The notes under the pieces were generated by a model, which was not told the DNA's origin, searched no databases, and worked only from the letters and a program-made list of their open reading frames with translations. From Hymenobacter sp. J193 (GTDB taxonomy: Bacteria; Bacteroidota; Bacteroidia; Cytophagales; Hymenobacteraceae), in the NCBI RefSeq assembly GCF_024700075.1, contig NZ_JAJONE010000001.1, positions 4,549,001 through 4,613,000 on the forward strand: 64,000 bases of DNA. The letters run 5' to 3'. A program made the translations under genes and the position numbers. This document shows positions 7,795 to 45,391 of the stretch, in pieces (positions within the stretch are counted from its first letter, which is position 1; every line of letters begins with the position of its first letter).

Positions 7795-8487
7795 CTACTC
7801 CTGTGCCGGATTCCGGCCGTCGAGGGTTCCGCTACTGCTGAGCACCCGGAACCGCGCAAACAGCTCCTCACCGTACCAGTTTTCCTGGCGGGTGAGCCTG
7901 ATTACTTCCTTGTGTTTTTCGCTGCGGTAAGCGTAGTCCTGCATGGCCTGGGCCGAGGTCCACAAGCTGAAGGTGGCCTGACGCACGACCGGCAGCTCGC
8001 CCAGGCCAATAGCGGCCAGCACGCCGGGCGCCTGGGCAATGGTAGCGCTGGTAGGCGCCACGTAGCGCCAGAAGCGCGGCGTTTTGTGCCAGCGAATAGA
8101 GGCCCGGGTAAGCACCGCTATGGGGCCATCGACCGCCTGAGTGGTATCGGGGTAATCAAACGGGTTTTGCTTGTCCCAGCGCCCGTGCGACTTGATCGGG
8201 GCCAGGTGCGCCGTCCAGATTTCCTGACACCGCTGCTCGTACTCCCGCCACAGCGGGTGAGTAGTGAAGAAATCCGCCGCCGCCGCTTCCGACTCCCAAA
8301 CCGCCATAAAGCCGTAGCGCAACAGGTTGGGCAGCGCCCCAAAGCCCCCGGCCCCGCTGCCGAGCAGCTTCTGAAACCGCAGCCCGGGTACGCGCTGCAG
8401 GGGGCGTTGGGCGGTGCCCATTTGCGCAAACCCCCAGCGCTTCTGGTTGGGGTGGAGGGTAAGCAGGGAAATAGTGGTCAGGGGCAA
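7795..8487 (-). CDS. Spheroidene monooxygenase-like protein (CrtA family)
   Basis: This 230-residue protein resembles the CrtA family, whose members add a keto group to acyclic carotenoids. Matching features are the LRYGFMAVWESEAAAADFF block, the central FWRYVAPTSATIAQAPGV block, and the C-terminal FSLWTSAQAMQDYAYR, followed by HKEVIRLTRQENWYGEELFARFR. No other carotenoid gene is nearby, so the substrate is inferred only from the family. The group also contains uncharacterised dimeric alpha/beta-barrel heme proteins, so a different oxygenase role is possible. It is on the same strand as leuS but separated from it by the tandem repeat array. Confidence 0.8.
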   Translation of the reverse strand: MPLTTISLLTLHPNQKRWGFAQMGTAQRPLQRVPGLRFQKLLGSGAGGFGALPNLLRYGFMAVWESEAAAADFFTTHPLWREYEQRCQEIWTAHLAPIKSHGRWDKQNPFDYPDTTQAVDGPIAVLTRASIRWHKTPRFWRYVAPTSATIAQAPGVLAAIGLGELPVVRQATFSLWTSAQAMQDYAYRSEKHKEVIRLTRQENWYGEELFARFRVLSSSGTLDGRNPAQE

Positions 8488-37227: not shown

Positions 37228-39766
37228 CTAGAGCTGACGCAGGATGGTTTCGTCGGTAATCTTGTCATCGTCCATGAGCAGCAGGGCTTTGCTCAGGATA
37301 ATGGACAGCACGGCGTCGCCTTCGAAGGGCAGAAAAACATCCGTCGTGCCCAGGGTCTTGCCCGAGCGGTCCGGCACAATGCACAGGTACTGGTCGTTGG
37401 GCGCCATAAGGATGTTGCCCGAGCCCAGGTGGATTTTGTAGACGTGCCGGTGCCCTTTCACTTCCAGGAAGTTACCCTTGATTTCGCTTACTTTTCCAAT
37501 TTTGAGTCGGGGCACCAGCCGTTCCAGGGCCAGCTTACGGGTTTTGGCTACCTCGCTCAAATCCCCGAACGAGTAGCTTTCCCAGTACGTGCGGAACTGA
37601 GCCAGGCCGCCGTTGTCGCGCCACTGCGGGTCATTGCCCACTGAGGCTACGCCCACAAACAGGTCTACGTCGCGCATCACTTCCGAAAAAGCCAGGGGCG
37701 AAACATCAGGCAAGGGCACCGGCTCGTTCTCCCGGGTGAAGCGCACCTGGTCGGTGCTCACGTAGTTGTAAATGCCCGTGTCGTTCCACTCCCCGTCGGC
37801 GTACACCTCGCTTACCCAGAACTCAGCCGTGAGGTTGTGGGCGGGCAGGGGCAGGCGGGCCGTTTCGGAGTCGTAGCCTTTATCGTAGGCGCCCAGCAGG
37901 CTATAGCGCCAGCCGCGCAGCTTGGCGAGGCTATTGAACTGGTGCTGCTTGAGAAGGTGGGCCGCCATGCGGTTGGAGTAGGTGAGGGTGCGCTCCTCGG
38001 GGGGCGTAAGCAGGTACACTTCCCGGAAGGCCTGCTTGAGCGGCTGCCGCACCTGCCGGCCCTCCAGCAGGCGCCGCCAGGCCAGCACCTCATCGGTATG
38101 AGCCAGCACGGGATGCCAGAGCTGCAGGTAGGTGTCGGCGGTAGGAGCGGGCACGGGCTGGCCTTGCGCGTCCTGCCAGGCGTCTGCCTGGAAAATAGCA
38201 TCCTGGCTTGAGCCATCGGGGCGGTGCAGGCGCCAGATAAGCGGGTGGGCCAGCAGACTGAGCAGCCCATGCCGGAAATAGTACTGCTCAAACCAGGGCC
38301 AGGGAATACGGCGCTCCTCCACAAAGCTGCGGTCGAGCCGGTCGCGCTGGGTGGTGTAGGTTTGCTGGGCCTGGGTCTGAGCCGCTTTCAGCTCCTTTAG
38401 CTCGTCGGCATGGGTGGCTTTGAGGGCAGTTGGAGCGCTTTTCAGGGCTTTATCGGCCTTGTGCCACTGCACGTCCGCCTTGCCGTCGCGGAGGGTGAGC
38501 GTGGCGGTATAGTCGGCAAACTCTTCGGAAAGCCGGCCGTTTTCCAACCCAAAGTCCGGCACGGCCATGTCCTCAATCTCGGCCGGACTCACGCCCAGCT
38601 TCACCGACTCCTGCTCGATATAGCGGGCAATGAGCTCCTGGGTGTTGGTCTGGCGTATTTTGGAGCGCACCCGTGCCAAAGCCGCCACGCCGGGCAGGCC
38701 GTTCTGCGACAAGGCCAGCAGGCAGGCATTGCCCAACCCGGCGGCCAGCGGTCCTTTGCCCGGAATCTTGCGGAAGCACTTCGCCGTCAAAACCGTCAGC
38801 TGCTCTATAATACCCGCATCGGCCAGGGGCTGCAGCGCCCAGACGAGGCCCTTGGCGACGGTGGCGTTGGCCTCGGTGAGGAAGTCCCAGGAGGAGTAGT
38901 GGTAGTCCCGCCCGTTGTCGTACGTAACGACGTGCTGCTTTTCCGTCACCGGCGTGTCGGTCAGCAGCTTCAGCCAGGAGCGGCCCTGTTCGCGTACCTC
39001 GTCGGGGCCAACGGCGGCAACGGCCGCATCCATTTCCTGGCGCAGCTTGGCGGTGGGCTGGGCGCCCGTGGCTTTTGGCCAGCGCTGCAGCAAGCTCAGC
39101 CAGGCGCCGGTGCGCGGGTCGGCGCGGTCCAGGCCCGTCACGAACTGGGTGAGGCTGCGGCCCAGCGGGTCGCCATCGGCAAATACGACCACCGGCAAAT
39201 TATCGTCGCCGGCGGCCTGGCCCAGCATTTCCTGGGTTTTGAGGTGTACTTTCAGCTGGTCGCCGGTTTGCCCGGCCGTGAACTCGCGCAGCTGACGCAG
39301 AAAAGCCAGCATATCCTCTCCCAGGGGCCCGCGCTTGGCTAGCTTGGCCACTTGGTTTAGCGTCAGCAGCACCGGGAAAGGGTAGAAGTTCAGGGTCAGT
39401 TTGTCTGGATTTGCGAAATCGAGCCCGTAGCTGGCAAACAGCCGCAGGTAATCCGCCTCACTCAGGCTGAGAGTAGTGCGCATAAGGGCCGTCATCACCT
39501 CCGCCATCCCCCCACTGGACGCGGTAGCTGTCTTCCCGGCCCACGCGGTTGATGGCCGCCGCCAGGGCCAGTACCAAGCGGCTCTGATAGGCGGTGTCCT
39601 GGCTTCGGATGGCCTGATACGCGGGTAAATCATTGAGCTTGGTGTAGAAGTCTTTTTCCAGGACCTGAGGCAGCAGAGCCAGCAGCACGGGCTTCATTTC
39701 AACGGCTTCGGCACTGGCGTCCTCCAGAATGGCGGGGTTGAACTCTTCTTTTCTTGTCGAAGGCAT
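37228..39766 (-). pseudogene. DUF4132 (MolR-like) protein, one frameshift
   Basis: An N-terminal piece starts MPSTRKEEFNPAILED (39766) and runs to YRVQWG. The remainder continues one frame over from GMAEVMTALMRTTLSLSEAD to the end. Removing one C from the C6 run at 39508-39513 gives an uninterrupted protein of 845 residues. The C-terminal part has the features of DUF4132: RRIPWPWFEQYYFRHGLL, HPLIWRL, and LGAYDKGYDSETARLPLPAH, then EVYADGEWNDTGIY. E. coli YehI/MolR belongs to this family; its biochemical role is unsettled. It is the last gene of the SWIM/DUF6493/beta-grasp cluster and lies 49 bp from the beta-grasp gene. Confidence 0.82.
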
Positions 39767-39815: not shown

Positions 39816-40208
39816 TCAACCCCCAACCAGCGGCGTGAGCTTTATAAAACTGGCCGTAGCTCCCGCGCCCAGCCAAACCTGCTCGTCCAGGCTCTCGGCT
39901 TGGCGCTCATTCACCAGCACAAAAAAGCGGTTCTGCTGGAAGGCTTCGAGGGCGCGGTACACCTGCTGCTCGGCATCGATGAGCTGGTGGGGGCGCAGGC
40001 GGAACCCATTGAGCGTGCGCTCCGATTCGGTGGGCTGCACCAGCCCCTGGAAAGTGCCGCTCTGCTGCGCATTGTAGGCCGTTACCTCATCGTGCACGCG
40101 CTGGGTTATCAGCTCGCGCACGGTGAGGGTTTCCTGGGTTATTTCCAGCTCCAGGCGGCGCAGTATGCTGCCACTGGCGGTTTCATCGAGGATGGTGAGT
40201 ATGGGCAT
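39816..40208 (-). CDS. Putative MoaD/ThiS/ubiquitin-like beta-grasp protein ending in Gly-Gly
   Basis: A 130-residue protein starting MPILTILDETASGS. The order is strand (PILTILDETA), strand (ILRRLELEI), helix (TVRELITQRVHDEVTAYNAQ), an insert of about 40 residues, helix (LIDAEQQVYRALEAF), and a final strand set beginning RFFVLVNERQAESL and ending SFIKLTPLVGG. The VN...PxVGG ending closely parallels the VN...PPVTGG ending of MoaD/ThiS, whose C-terminal Gly-Gly is adenylated and thiolated or conjugated. No E1-, E2- or JAB-like gene is in the window. The GG is encoded in a G5 run; one base fewer would fuse it to the DUF4132 gene. The alternative upstream start at 40319 is unlikely. It is probably translated with its cluster neighbours. 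Confidence 0.72.
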   Translation of the reverse strand: MPILTILDETASGSILRRLELEITQETLTVRELITQRVHDEVTAYNAQQSGTFQGLVQPTESERTLNGFRLRPHQLIDAEQQVYRALEAFQQNRFFVLVNERQAESLDEQVWLGAGATASFIKLTPLVGG

Positions 40209-40324: not shown

Positions 40325-43300
40325 CTATGCCTGCTGGTGCCCAACATGAAGGCTTACGGCGCTGCCTTTCTCCTGCAGCAAGGCCCCGGCCGCCTTTTTC
40401 AGGCTACTCACCCGCTGCCACTCGCGCAGGCGTTCCTGTACGCTTTCCGGTACCAGGCGGCGCACCCGGCTCAGGGCATCGGCGTAGGCATCAAGCACCT
40501 TGGCCGTGTTGCGCAGAGGAACCGCGGGCAGCAGCGGTAGCAGAGCCTCCAGGATCTGGCGCAGGGCATCGTCGGTGCGCCGGCTGATGGCGCGGGCCTG
40601 CCCCAGCCCTTCAGCCAGGCGGGCCAGGGGCGCACGGCCCGCAGCCAGCAAACGGCCCAGGGCTCGGCCCAGGTCGGCGGGTACCAGGCGCCCCGTATCA
40701 GTGGCGCTTAGCAGCACTTCCAAGCCCATGGCGCGCACCACCGGCGCCTGGTGAAGCAGTCCGGCCGCCAGCAAGGAACTGGTGCCAGTTGCATGCGGTG
40801 GCCCTATTCCCAGCAGGCCCTTCAAAGCCAGCTGAACGGCGTCGCGGGCCTCGGAGCCGGCCTCATCCGTGCGGCAGCAGGTGCGCAGCACGTGCCAGTG
40901 CAGGGGCTCAGGGTTGTTGGGCAGCAAAGCCAGGGAGCTGGAAATGCTAAAGCGCAGCACGTACCCCGACTGCTCGACGCGCTGCGTTAAACCAGCGTAG
41001 GCCGTGTAAGGGAACAAGGGTGGGGCCGGGCGGGAAGCCGGGGTATCGGGCACCAGCAATTCCACGTGCTTGTCGGTTACGGTAGGCTGGCCCTTTTCCC
41101 ATTTGCGCACGTAGGTCAGGGTAATTTCTGCCAGCGTCCAGCCCGGCTCCCAGGGCAGGGCCAGGCCGGGCAGCTTGCCGAGAGCTGCCAGGGCCGGCAG
41201 CTCGGCCGTGGGGTAGCGGGTACGCGCGGCTACAGCCCACAGCCAGGGCAGCGCCTCCGTCAGGTCCAGGGGCAGGATTTGCTCGGGCTGAGATTTTATG
41301 GGGATAAGCTTGCCGAGCTTTTCCCGGGCCCGCTCCAGAAGGCTCGGGTCCGCCGCCGAATCAGCCTCTGGCCAGGAGGGCAGCTTGGTGGCGTGAGGCG
41401 GAGCAGGGGCGGGCACCGGCACTGGCACGGGGCCGAGGGGTGTGGTAGTACGGGTGGAGTTAGCGCCGTAGTTCTTTACCTGCTCCGTCTGAGGGTCCGC
41501 GCCGGCAGATAGGGTTTCGGGCGTAGCGGCCACAGCGGGAGCTTCTTCCTCGCAGGAGGCCAGCAGCCAGTTGAGCAGCTCCCGCAGGTCGGCGGCGTGC
41601 AGCTCGGGCAGGCGGGCCCGGGCCTGCTGGGCATCAGCCGGGTTCGACCAGGCGCACCGGGCCAGGGCCACGGCCAGGTCGGCCGCATCGGGTGTTTCAT
41701 TGGCTTCTTGGTAAGTCAGTAGCTTGTCTACCAGAATGCTGGGCGCCACCCAGTGTGGGGCATGCGTGGCGGTACTCAGCAAGGGCAGCGGCACTGCCCC
41801 GGGGCGCAGGCGGCCTTCGGCGGCCGCCAGGCGGCGCTGTTCCAACTGCAGCAGCGGGTCGGCGGCGTGGTAGTGGCTTTTGCGCAGGTCAAGGCGCGCG
41901 ACGTGCGGGTTCTCAAAGCCGGTAGCCAGGCCAACTACCAGCGCCGCCAGCAAATCGTAAGGGCCCGGCCGCCCGGTGGTGTGGTAGGTTTGCAGCAAAG
42001 CCTCCTGCTCGGCCGGAGTTCTTTCCTGCCCATGCCAGCTCAGCACCTGCTTTTGGTAGGGGCGCAGCTGGGTAGCATGGTCGGCCGGCAGGTGGGGGCG
42101 CAGGCGCAGCAGGCCATCCACCCAGCGGTCCACAGCTGTGGGGTCGTCGGCCGCCAGTACCGGGCCGGTCAGAAACAGCAGCTCGTGCCAATCGGCCACC
42201 GGGGCCAGGGCCGTATCAGGCGTCAGCTCCGGGACGAAGCCGGCCTGGGGTGAGTAGTCAGCGGCGGGTGCGGCGGCGTCCTGTTCCTGGGCCGCGGAAG
42301 CCGTCAGCCAGGGGGCCAGGCGGGTGCGGGCGGCGGGAGAGAGCAGGTCGGCGTAAGCAGATAGGGTAGTCGTGGTTTCCTGGATTTCCGCGGGGGAGAG
42401 CAGGGGAGTTTTGGCCGTCAGTACGGCGGCCAGTACGCGGGCGGCGCGGTCCTGCACGCCGGCATCGGCGTGGGGCAGGGCGGCAGCAGCCAGGCGGGTA
42501 AGGGCAGGAGCCTGCGCGGGCTGGCTTTTAAGAAGCTTCTCGAAAGAGGTTAGCAGGGTCTTTAGGCCGGTTTTCAGGTCCTGCCGGCTCATCAGGCCGT
42601 CGGCGTACTGCAGCAGCGGGCCCAGGTCGAAGCCGGGGTTCTCCCACAAGCCTTTCAGCTGCTCAATAGCAAAGTTCACAACCACCGGCAGCGGGTGGGC
42701 CAGCAGCTCTACCAGCTCGTTTTGCCGGGCCAGCCGCTCTTCCAGGGTTGGCTTCAGCCCGGCAAACAACTCCTTGAACCAGCCCAGCAGCGGCCTTTTG
42801 AAGTCGCGCCGCAAAGCCAGCAGGCTGCGCGTAAGCAACTCGCTGCGGTCCAGGTCGCCAGTCGTGGCCAGGGCGACCAGCAAGGCTATCCACCCAATCG
42901 AAATACCATTGGGGTAGGAGCCGATGTAAGTGCTGTCGTAATTGACGTTGGTTTCGTAGTCGAACAGGAGCCACACGTCCCGGCCGAGCAGCTCGGGGTC
43001 GGCCCGCAAGTCAGTTAGGATAACCTCTTCTACCTGCTGCTGGGTGCGCTTGCGCTTGTCTTCGCGGTCGTAGCGCGAAAGGCGGTTGCCCAACAGCTGG
43101 GCGAAGGTAGGCGGGTCGAAGGCAATGAGGCCTTCCCGCTCCAGAGCCCGCAGCTCAGCGTAGTCGGGGGCCTGCCACAGGTTGGTACGGGTCATGCGGG
43201 CCAGCAGGTCGCCCAGCCAGTCGGGCCGGAAGTGGCGCAGCACCTGCCAGTGCAGGTCGTAGTGCTGGCGGTTGTCGTGGCTGTTGCGCAGGCTCCAGGG

Positions 43301-43579
43301 CAGCTCAAAGCTGCGGGCCAGGGCCTCCTTGCGCGTAAAGGTGGCCAGCCCGGTGAGGGCCAGCATGGCCTGCTGCTCGGTAGTGAGCAGGCGCTGGTAC
43401 TCTATCCTGCCCTTTTTGCCTTCCACCTGGCGGTACTCTTCCAGGCGTTTTTTGAGCTGCTGGGTAGGGCGGCGCAGCGCTATAGCGTCTTTTTTATCGA
43501 TGCTCAGCAGGAAGGGCACCAGCTCCCGGGCAGTCTGGTGCAGTATGATGTCCTCAAAAGTTTCGGCAACGGTCGGCAT
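40325..43579 (-). CDS. Large helical protein, DUF6493-like
   Basis: A 1084-residue cytoplasmic protein starting MPTVAETFEDIILHQTARELVPFLLS. No signal peptide or transmembrane helix is present. It is Leu/Ala-rich throughout, reads as stacked helical (HEAT-like) repeats, and has a Pro-rich linker near residue 720 (GPVPVPVPAPAPP). This layout and its position between a SWIM protein and a DUF4132 protein match DUF6493-type proteins as I know them, but the assignment rests on context as much as sequence. It lies 62 bp after the SWIM gene and 116 bp before the beta-grasp gene. The 62 extra codons that are open upstream overlap the SWIM gene end and are excluded. Confidence 0.72.
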   Translation of the reverse strand: MPTVAETFEDIILHQTARELVPFLLSIDKKDAIALRRPTQQLKKRLEEYRQVEGKKGRIEYQRLLTTEQQAMLALTGLATFTRKEALARSFELPWSLRNSHDNRQHYDLHWQVLRHFRPDWLGDLLARMTRTNLWQAPDYAELRALEREGLIAFDPPTFAQLLGNRLSRYDREDKRKRTQQQVEEVILTDLRADPELLGRDVWLLFDYETNVNYDSTYIGSYPNGISIGWIALLVALATTGDLDRSELLTRSLLALRRDFKRPLLGWFKELFAGLKPTLEERLARQNELVELLAHPLPVVVNFAIEQLKGLWENPGFDLGPLLQYADGLMSRQDLKTGLKTLLTSFEKLLKSQPAQAPALTRLAAAALPHADAGVQDRAARVLAAVLTAKTPLLSPAEIQETTTTLSAYADLLSPAARTRLAPWLTASAAQEQDAAAPAADYSPQAGFVPELTPDTALAPVADWHELLFLTGPVLAADDPTAVDRWVDGLLRLRPHLPADHATQLRPYQKQVLSWHGQERTPAEQEALLQTYHTTGRPGPYDLLAALVVGLATGFENPHVARLDLRKSHYHAADPLLQLEQRRLAAAEGRLRPGAVPLPLLSTATHAPHWVAPSILVDKLLTYQEANETPDAADLAVALARCAWSNPADAQQARARLPELHAADLRELLNWLLASCEEEAPAVAATPETLSAGADPQTEQVKNYGANSTRTTTPLGPVPVPVPAPAPPHATKLPSWPEADSAADPSLLERAREKLGKLIPIKSQPEQILPLDLTEALPWLWAVAARTRYPTAELPALAALGKLPGLALPWEPGWTLAEITLTYVRKWEKGQPTVTDKHVELLVPDTPASRPAPPLFPYTAYAGLTQRVEQSGYVLRFSISSSLALLPNNPEPLHWHVLRTCCRTDEAGSEARDAVQLALKGLLGIGPPHATGTSSLLAAGLLHQAPVVRAMGLEVLLSATDTGRLVPADLGRALGRLLAAGRAPLARLAEGLGQARAISRRTDDALRQILEALLPLLPAVPLRNTAKVLDAYADALSRVRRLVPESVQERLREWQRVSSLKKAAGALLQEKGSAVSLHVGHQQA

Positions 43580-43641
43580 GCAAAGGCAGGGATATAGAAG
43601 TAAGTGATAAAAGCAGCTAAGGCCAGGCACAGCAAGCCTGC

Positions 43642-44982
43642 CTACCCAAACCGCAGCTGCGCCGCCAGAATGTGCTTGCACGGCCCCCGCTGGCCCTGGT
43701 TGTCGGTAAACCACGTGCAGGTGCACCGGGCCGGTTCGGTGCCGCTCAGCACCACGGTGTGCCACACGCCCGTACCCCGCACGCGCACCTCCGTGCGCCC
43801 CTGCGGCCCCACGCCCACCAGCTGCACGTCGTCGGCATTATCGAGCAGGGCGCGGGCATTTTTCAGGCGTGGGTTCAGCTTCAGGATGCGCTCTGTTTTG
43901 AACGGCAGGCGCCGGTAGAAATACTGGTTGTCGCGCAGGTCGAAGCCCAGCAGGCCCAGGGCCGAGAGGTGGGCGCACAGCCGCGCCACGGTGGCCGGGC
44001 TCAGGTCGTGGGTCAGCCCAAAAAGGGTGGGGTTGAGGGTTTCGTTGCTTTGAAACAGGTTGTTGGCCCCGGTCAGCCATTCGGCCGGCAGCTCCTCCGC
44101 CAGGGTTTCCAACTGAGCGCCTTCCCCCGAAAAGCCCCGGTTCACCTCCGCCGACAACGCTAGTAGAAACTCGTGGCCGCTGCCTAGCGTGAGCACCACG
44201 GCGCTGGCTTGCCCATCGGGGGTGGCGTAGAGGCGCACTGTTTCGCTGAGCGGCAGCAGGCCATCGAGCAGACGCAGGCGGTGGGCCCCACCAATGCGCA
44301 CCCCGCCCGGCCCGGCTACCGGCGAAAAAGCCGGCCGGCCCCCGCGCACCACGAGGAAAGTGTCGGTGCGGGCTGCGCCGGCCGGCAGGGTTTGCAGCAG
44401 CTGGGCCGCCTGCACCCGGGTAAGCGTCAGCCGCTCTTCCATACGGGCAAGGTAGTCCTGGGCCGCTGTAAGGCCCTTGAGCCAGCGCTCCGGCAGCGTC
44501 ACCTTGCGCTCGGTGACGTGGCCGGCCGCGCGCTCCAGCGTAACTTCCTGCTGGCCCACGCTCAGCCGCACCGGCTCCGTCCGGCTGATGCGGCTCAGAG
44601 CGTTTACCATGGGCTCATTGAAGTCGACGTTGGTGGTGCCGCTGTGCACAAACTCGCCATCGAGAGCGGCCGGCCCCAGGTCCAGCCGGGCATACACTCC
44701 ATTGCAGGAGGAGAAGGCCTCGAAGCGCAGCTGACCTGCCCCGGCCGTCACGATAGGGTCGCGCAGGGCGGCGCTCTGGGGCACAAAGCGCGAAGCCACT
44801 ACTTTGGCCAGCGTAGTGAGGCCCCGGGCCGCCAGCCAGGGGTCACGCAGCTGGCCCCGGAAAAAGCAGGCTGCTCCGCTGGCAGGCGCATTCTCGGCGT
44901 ACGCGGCCAGCAGCAGCGTGTCGCCTTCGGCCTGGCGGGTGAGGGAGGAAGCCTGGGCGTAGGCATAAGCAAAGTCAGTCAT
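43642..44982 (-). CDS. SWIM zinc-finger protein
   Basis: A 446-residue protein starting MTDFAYAYAQASSLTRQAEG. Its C-terminus contains the SWIM signature: C420-x-C422 followed after 12 residues by C435-x-H437 (CTC...CKH). SWIM fingers mediate DNA or protein contacts. Family relatives accompany DUF4132 proteins, including E. coli YehQ in the yehI region. The long N-terminal part is mixed alpha/beta with no other motif recognised. It is the first gene of the four-gene unit; the start at 44982 leaves a promoter region with an A/T-rich segment to the right. Confidence 0.9.
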   Translation of the reverse strand: MTDFAYAYAQASSLTRQAEGDTLLLAAYAENAPASGAACFFRGQLRDPWLAARGLTTLAKVVASRFVPQSAALRDPIVTAGAGQLRFEAFSSCNGVYARLDLGPAALDGEFVHSGTTNVDFNEPMVNALSRISRTEPVRLSVGQQEVTLERAAGHVTERKVTLPERWLKGLTAAQDYLARMEERLTLTRVQAAQLLQTLPAGAARTDTFLVVRGGRPAFSPVAGPGGVRIGGAHRLRLLDGLLPLSETVRLYATPDGQASAVVLTLGSGHEFLLALSAEVNRGFSGEGAQLETLAEELPAEWLTGANNLFQSNETLNPTLFGLTHDLSPATVARLCAHLSALGLLGFDLRDNQYFYRRLPFKTERILKLNPRLKNARALLDNADDVQLVGVGPQGRTEVRVRGTGVWHTVVLSGTEPARCTCTWFTDNQGQRGPCKHILAAQLRFG

Positions 44983-45391
44983 AGCAAGGTGCGGCAGAGG
45001 TAGTGAGAGGTTTAAGTTGATCCGATTGACGGGCAATGGCCAGCCATATTGCTTACTCCAAATATACATTTATAGTTGCCAATTATTGCTAATAAATTTA
45101 GTAATAGTGAATATGCTAAAGAGTTTGGTTTAAAGCCTCATTAGCTACAGAATCCGGAACAAAAAGTAAGCTTAAAACCCGCATTCAGGTCCTATAGTAG
45201 TGGTCCAGCGTGCAGGCTTGCCGGTATGTATTCGCCTGCTGAAAGCACGCTGCCGCTTTGCGTTTGCTGGAAAAAATAGCTTGTTCTTTGCAGCAAGCTC
45301 GCTGGCCCTGGGTAGAGTTAACAGGTGCTTAATTGGCTGTTAGTTAGCAGGTTGAATTTAGCTCGCGTATCCGGGCGAAACCCAACAACCC
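44983..45391. other. Promoter gap before the SWIM cluster
   Basis: About 409 bp, A/T-rich between 45050 and 45130 in an otherwise GC-rich window, with no ORF of note. It contains the promoter candidate listed below and probably the end signals of the DUF1963 gene on its right. Confidence 0.45.
45059..45066 (-). promoter_or_regulatory. Candidate -7 promoter element for the SWIM cluster
   Basis: On the minus strand the bases read TATATTTG, an exact fit to TAnnTTTG, about 80 bp before the SWIM start codon. A TTG lies 13 bp upstream, closer than the usual -33 spacing, so support is partial. Confidence 0.4.

Follow-up and report, generated by a model that had tools for sequence, protein, structure and literature searches.

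A Gly-Gly-ended, predicted beta-grasp protein paired with DUF4132/DUF7737 proteins: a likely undescribed modifier or sulphur-carrier system

The described systems closest to the locus analysed here are MoaD and ThiS with MoeB and ThiF, the bacterial E1–E2–JAB ubiquitin-like operons (PMC1779556, Table 1 rows 6a-6e), the Deinococcus radiodurans pair DRA0165/DRA0166, and the Escherichia coli yehI-yehKLMPQ cluster, which encodes DUF4132, MoxR ATPase, VWA and SWIM proteins. Like MoaD and ThiS, the small protein at the centre of this work (hereafter UBL) has a predicted beta-grasp fold and a C-terminal Gly-Gly (GG) after a hydrophobic strand, and a MoeB/ThiF-like E1 gene adjoins the UBL–DUF4132 pair in 11 loci. 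Unlike them, it is about 130 residues long, carries a long insert that separates the first helix from the last strands, lacks a match to the Pfam ThiS model, and has as its constant partner a DUF4132/DUF7737 protein rather than MoaE or ThiG. The E1–E2–JAB operons are similar in that ubiquitin-like and E1 genes stand together in some UBL loci, but these loci have no recurring E2 or JAB gene, and a DUF4132/DUF7737 gene with a conserved cysteine is the constant member instead; in the accessible part of the 2006 survey of prokaryotic ubiquitin-like gene neighbourhoods, none of rows 1-11 of Table 1 fits the UBL–DUF4132 arrangement (PMC1779556). In D. radiodurans a GG-ended homologue also lies directly before a DUF4132 protein, but DRA0166 is a 1626-aa DUF4132 protein, and the account of DRA0165 in the accessible text of PMC9650054 makes no connection with an E1 or with DUF4132. 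The E. coli cluster likewise brings DUF4132 and SWIM genes into one neighbourhood; it differs in that YehI matches DUF4132 and not DUF7737, and in that yehK (105 aa, beside yehI) scores 1.4 bits with the UBL profile and has no GG end. Among seven window proteins scanned against Pfam, DUF4132 and SWIM were present and none matched MoxR or VWA.

In the literature open without subscription, we found no account that links DUF4132 with a beta-grasp protein and no paper at all on DUF5724, a domain of some relatives of the partner; within that same scope, the original prediction that a carrier or modifier had gone undescribed for these genes stands. We consider that the pair is likely an undescribed modifier or sulphur-carrier system. 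Our working model is that the MoaD/ubiquitin-type UBL functions together with the adjoining DUF4132/DUF7737 protein. An E1-like enzyme would adenylate the C-terminal glycine of UBL; it may be a dedicated enzyme, encoded by a third operon gene, in some genomes, and elsewhere, probably including the Hymenobacter studied here, a borrowed E1 of the MoeB type. The activated glycine would then pass to a conserved DUF7737 cysteine, acting as an E2-like or a sulphur acceptor, so that the large protein would be a transfer enzyme, with the helical N-terminal half of DUF4132 as a possible docking platform for targets and a protein modification used under stress as the end product. We see the chances of such E1-to-cysteine transfer, with protein modification as its likely outcome, as evenly balanced. 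The model draws on sequence comparison and structure prediction: the conservation of GG, the fold, the gene pairing, the operonic E1s with intact motifs, and the association of the cysteine with GG.

The small protein, its tail and its predicted fold

The window is the whole stretch of DNA that was analysed, 64,000 nt of Hymenobacter sp. J193. The features concerned are as follows.

37228-39766, minus strand: DUF4132+DUF7737 gene (Pfam), the constant partner, split over two reading frames (39458-39766, 37228-39633), DUF7737 cysteine present; partner in 75 of 80 loci
39816-39836, minus strand: tail codons TPLVGG and stop; TPLVGG in 116 among the best 120 of 1294 homologues
39816-40208, minus strand: UBL gene, a 130-aa predicted beta-grasp (MoaD/ubiquitin-like) protein ending ...KLTPLVGG, from its ORF, homologues and predicted fold
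40325-43765, minus strand: DUF6493+DUF7824+DUF7825 protein (Pfam), local upstream neighbour; in 7 of 80 relatives' loci
43642-45069, minus strand: SWIM zinc-finger protein (Pfam), local neighbour whose ORF overlaps the mechanical start of the next ORF; in 6 of 80 loci

As the original prediction had read it, the UBL ORF ends in ...FIKLTPLVGG with a TGA directly after, and a G5 run writes the GG and stop. The same prediction cautioned that this run might be one base too long, in which case the stop after GG would be false and the ORF would be no more than the front of the DUF4132 gene; a change of frame at a G6 run is indeed present in that gene. The homologues speak strongly against such an artefact. 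A protein search returned 1294 relatives, and among the best 120, which include the query, a GG end is present in 119 and a length of exactly 130 aa in 109; GG ends 239 of the 240 proteins among the matches listed from two UBL searches, query included, and the listed homologues are short, separate proteins. A genome search confirmed 156 relatives, from which 80 loci were kept (38 from Hymenobacter, 42 from others) by patterns that covered KLTPLV and neither GG nor the stop. GG followed by a stop was nevertheless found in 78 of the 80, written with at least 30 combinations of two glycine codons and a stop codon, and five or more consecutive G occur in only 10 of the 78 tails. Because these tails vary so much in their codons and so few carry such a run, the stop in the window is not the product of an erroneous G5 run. 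By this comparison of sequences, UBL is a real protein of 130 residues that ends in Gly-Gly, its fusion to DUF4132 through a homopolymer error is ruled out, and we regard the artefact as having next to no chance of being right.

The suspicion that other homopolymers of the window are too long does fit the neighbouring gene, where the 5' part of DUF4132 changes frame near the G6 run at 39508-39513. Proteins of four Hymenobacter relatives span both frame parts, and the change in the window may be either an assembly error or a real break.

The two loci of the 80 that lack a GG-stop are L014, where the ORF is interrupted, and L026. In the latter, a Hymenobacter UBL (8001-8396) ends in GV beside a DUF4132 partner that retains its cysteine, and the same strain holds a GG-ended copy (L025). 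Copy number also differs within Hymenobacter, with two copies in G072 (L099 7178-7570, and a second near L100) and none in G166 and G387. Bins labelled as cyanobacteria, Thalassovita and Armatimonadetes (L053, L071, L050, L086) carry Bacteroidota-like UBL genes, and misbinning is possible there.

A Pfam scan assigned UBL to no family at E up to 1, ThiS (PF02597) included, and the PF02597 matches of the window's genome lie elsewhere than UBL; NCBIfam gave a single match, far below its cut-off. Structure prediction and a fold search nonetheless bear out the beta-grasp fold that had been proposed from the sequence. The nearest match of the predicted structure is human MoaD (MOCS2A), followed by ubiquitin-type proteins, and SAMP1 and ubiquitin are among the best matches.

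Neighbouring genes and E1-like enzymes

The locus had been described as a SWIM/DUF6493/DUF4132 cluster, and Pfam confirms each of these neighbours. Across relatives, however, the three behave very differently: DUF4132 accompanies UBL in 75 of 80 loci (37/38 in Hymenobacter, 38/42 in others), whereas within the fetched flanks SWIM occurs in 6/38 and DUF6493 in 7/38 Hymenobacter loci, and both in 0/42 others. In 74 of these 75 loci at most 200 nt separate the UBL end from the DUF4132 start; in L085 the distance is 512 nt. Five loci lack DUF4132; in L032 the contig ends just past UBL, and in L048, L068, L070 and L083 other genes stand in its place. On the evidence of gene order, the constant partner of UBL is thus the next gene, DUF4132+DUF7737, and not SWIM or DUF6493. 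The SWIM protein at 43642-45069 matches the PADLOC model SWIM_XIII (2.6e-59). Directly 5' of UBL in two Flavobacterium loci lie genes for an McrBC component and a type I restriction subunit (L062 6561-7979 and L065 4804-7989).

Outside Hymenobacter, clustering of ORFs of at least 90 aa by BLAST, from which divergent genes could escape, found three clusters in more than three loci, namely DUF4132, UBL and a ThiF family (8 loci), and no recurring E2-like or JAB gene. Pfam scans of 118 of 217 nearby ORFs, which covered the first 25 among 151 families, added no other recurrent family and gave no MoaE, MoaC, MoaA or ThiG/ThiC near UBL, and neither these scans nor the ORF clusters showed a recurring desulphurase, rhodanese or SirA gene. 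Within these scans, the earlier statement that no E1, E2 or JAB gene lies nearby holds for recurring E2 and JAB genes, and it holds for an E1 at the window's own locus, but an E1 does adjoin the pair in other genomes. Of the 38 loci outside Hymenobacter that have DUF4132, 8 include an E1 (8/35 of those with at least 800 nt 3' of DUF4132), and in all eight the overlap between the E1 ORF (mechanical starts) and the DUF4132 stop is 1 or 4 nt. The same UBL–DUF4132–E1 order is seen in L098, L204 and L205 (where UBL is broken), bringing the total to at least 11 loci. No E1 stands alongside in the other 30 of the 38, nor in any of the 37 Hymenobacter loci with DUF4132, the window's included, in a search that may miss divergent E1s. 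Both the scarcity of adjoining E1s and, within these scans, the lack of recurring E2-like or JAB genes count against a transfer from E1 to cysteine.

The operonic E1s themselves appear intact. Two that were scanned match Pfam ThiF at 1.9e-68 and 2.1e-58, and nine that were aligned (L204 and L205 left out) retain GxGGLG, NL[HQ]RQ and a D-C-[TS]-D stretch. All nine share a cysteine that aligns with one in the MoeB-rhodanese protein of the window's genome and that we take to be catalytic, as in ThiF/Uba4. A 43-row tree places eight of the nine outside the clade of the genomes' MoeB/ThiF proteins (support 90/84, short of the tool's star), without showing them to be one clade, and the placement of the Kordia E1, on a long branch, is unsure. 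The genomes of Flavobacterium cheniae and Kordia algicida have no ThiS/MoaD above the cut-off, and beside the operonic E1 each has one other ThiF-fold protein at E ≤1e-10, divergent and labelled TcdA-like by us; UBL is hence the only visible carrier for the operonic E1 in both.

In the window's genome, a ThiF-rhodanese fusion of the MoeB type and a ThiS/MoaD-family match are about 5 kb apart, and contig C6 has two further ThiF matches. The idea that the locus borrows a chromosomal activator is thus possible, since this fusion is present, and by sequence this Hymenobacter could use either the MoeB-rhodanese protein or another ThiF protein as its E1. On contig C6 (195 kb), an E1-like protein (L102 4711-6522) begins with a stretch that weakly resembles an E2, at a score under the Pfam cut-off; a JAB-family protein is encoded about 5 kb beyond it (L102 11295-11726), and some 100 kb away on C6 the E1 region is present a second time, with its ORF fragmented (L103).

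The same E1s admit a reading in which no conjugate is formed: the enzyme would make a C-terminal thiocarboxylate on UBL, a pure sulphur carrier, and DUF4132 would use the sulphur on a small molecule or RNA much as MoaE and ThiG do. The top fold match is, after all, MoaD in molybdopterin synthase, the operonic E1s resemble MoeB/ThiF, the MoeB of the window's genome bears a rhodanese domain, and YeeE/YedE genes, a thioredoxin and thiS are found in the vicinity of the D. radiodurans UBL. A rhodanese domain is, however, missing from all nine operonic E1s in the alignment, which end before that part of MoeB-rhodanese, and the absence of a recurring desulphurase, rhodanese or SirA gene in the scans above points the same way. 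We consider a pure sulphur carrier a minority possibility, though a serious one.

The DUF7737 cysteine and the YW-tailed sister group

Turning to the proposed transfer of the activated glycine to DUF7737, a single cysteine of this domain (C818 of the L056 protein) is present in 73 of 73 ordinary-size UBL-linked DUF4132 proteins compared. Counted by the tail of the neighbouring UBL, it is found where the tail is GG in 79 of 80 partners (L047, the one without it, is a 457-aa ORF lacking that region) and where the tail is not GG in none of 11, which have S, N, H or A instead (L197 is a fragment). Outside these counts stand the partners of the GV-ended UBL (L026) and of the two broken UBLs (L014, L205), all with the cysteine, and two proteins with no UBL detected nearby (L211 and L212, residues C and F). 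The front half of DUF4132 is predicted to be helical (pLDDT 82.7), with weak HEAT/ARM-like structural matches mainly at residues 31-416.

The non-GG tails belong to a sister subfamily, mostly from Flavobacteriaceae among the matches seen, that ends in RLTFLAGSYW, with GSYW in 119 of the 120 listed; other tails are TFL[STV]G[AT]YW and one AGGW (L179, the same gene in L203). In L203 (3538-4005) this AGGW end, GG plus one residue, is paired with a DUF7737 protein that has His in place of the cysteine. The terminal GG, whose invariance the original prediction had set as a check, is nearly invariant in the main family, but gives way to YW in this more distant group. Where complete, the adjoining giants are about 1650-1716 aa long, and the two scanned against Pfam are DUF5724+DUF4132+DUF7737 proteins. 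Since YW-tailed UBLs also adjoin DUF4132, the pairing does not need GG, which counts against the transfer of an activated tail.

The sister group lends itself to an account in which UBL is a structural or regulatory subunit of a DUF4132 complex, its tail sitting unactivated in a DUF4132 pocket, and the nearby E1s serve some other purpose. It shows that a tail next to DUF4132+DUF7737 giants can be conserved without GG, ThiF-family and ThiS matches are both absent from the YW-type genome G198, and TmoB offers a precedent for a beta-grasp subunit in the accessible part of PMC1779556 (Table 1). Such a non-covalent role would leave unexplained both the tight UBL–DUF4132–E1 order and the way the DUF7737 cysteine tracks a GG tail. 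Moreover, a ThiF-fold protein is present in 9 of 10 YW-type genomes and in 13 of 17 genomes without UBL, so the absence of an E1 follows no pattern. We find this account rather improbable.

The match between GG and the cysteine, on which the transfer of UBL from E1 to DUF7737 leans, carries less independent weight than its counts suggest. In a DUF4132/DUF7737 tree of 66 rows (Hymenobacter thinned; L047, L197, L211 and L212 omitted; long branches flagged by the tool), the partners of non-GG UBLs form one clade (88/84), and the association therefore represents a single joint evolutionary change. Both this and the cysteine kept by the partners in L014, L026 and L205 count against the transfer. 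The Deinococcus giants fall in the deep clade of YW-type giants (100/100), and those of L213, L218 and L219 have GG-ended UBLs and keep the cysteine.

A more specific form of the model takes DUF4132/DUF7737 to be an unrecognised ubiquitin-like transfer enzyme, in which an E1 charges UBL and UBL moves to the cysteine and on to targets without an E2, with damage-induced protein modification in Deinococcus. We offer it tentatively, as a proposal that would more probably need revision than survive intact.

Distribution and the Deinococcus radiodurans pair

The UBL–DUF4132 pair also occurs in Actinomycetota, Pseudomonadota and Deinococcota, with the UBL tail VPLVGG in Nonomuraea, LTPLKGG on a Novosphingobium plasmid (where UBL overlaps the DUF4132 start) and LTALAGG in Deinococcus (4/4), and a Bacteroides finegoldii plasmid record holds a pair with a GRLW tail. 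In Acetobacter the ORF 5' of DUF4132 gave no UBL match, and no UBL was detected at a second Nonomuraea DUF4132 locus (L211). Within Bacteroidota the distribution is patchy: UBL was found in 7 of 395 Bacteroidota genomes, the window's own included, with a Hymenobacter profile, and in 14 of 249 genomes of one family, one copy degenerate, with a broad profile.

The regulatory motif printed for DRA0165 in the accessible part of PMC8533742 has an exact match at L213 3390-3409, 82 nt 5' of the start of UBL (-83 in the paper), which identifies the D. radiodurans UBL as DRA0165 and its DUF4132 giant as DRA0166. As far as the accessible text of PMC8533742 goes, depletion of DdrO strongly upregulates the DRA0165-DRA0166 operon, and mitomycin C induces DRA0166 in an IrrE-dependent manner. 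DRA0165 has been studied as SEP068184, and the accessible text of PMC9650054 reports that it is up under gamma rays and peroxide, that its deletion raises peroxide survival, that it binds Trx1 and that its predicted structure is likened to MOCS2 and SAMP1. The two papers disagree, in the parts accessible, on a radiation/desiccation response motif upstream of DRA0165: PMC9650054 finds no such motif and regards the protein as restricted to Deinococcus. Our results disagree with both statements: the printed motif is present at L213, and homologues occur in other phyla.

PMC9650054 further reports, in its accessible text, 157 co-immunoprecipitated proteins common to N- and C-terminally tagged SEP068184. 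Because these contacts are seen with a C-terminal tag as well, they do not need a free tail, which argues against these 157 contacts being tail conjugates and counts against the proposed transfer to targets. Our leading guess is still that the product of UBL is a stress-time protein modification, because the D. radiodurans pair is reported in a DNA-damage regulon.

The MoaD-like predicted structure of the D. radiodurans member and its damage-induced operon are already in print (accessible parts of PMC9650054 and PMC8533742), and a knock-out strain and proteomics are available for it (PMC9650054). DUF4132 is an unexplained domain of several phyla, and in D. radiodurans it is linked to the response to damage. 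Its pairing with a beta-grasp protein that ends in GG, and that in part of the genomes has an E1 of its own, provides it with a chemistry that can be tested. Should UBL prove to be only a sulphur carrier, the pair would define a new thiolation pathway. If instead the cysteine does accept UBL, bacteria would possess a ubiquitin-like relay whose transferase is of a type for which we found no description.
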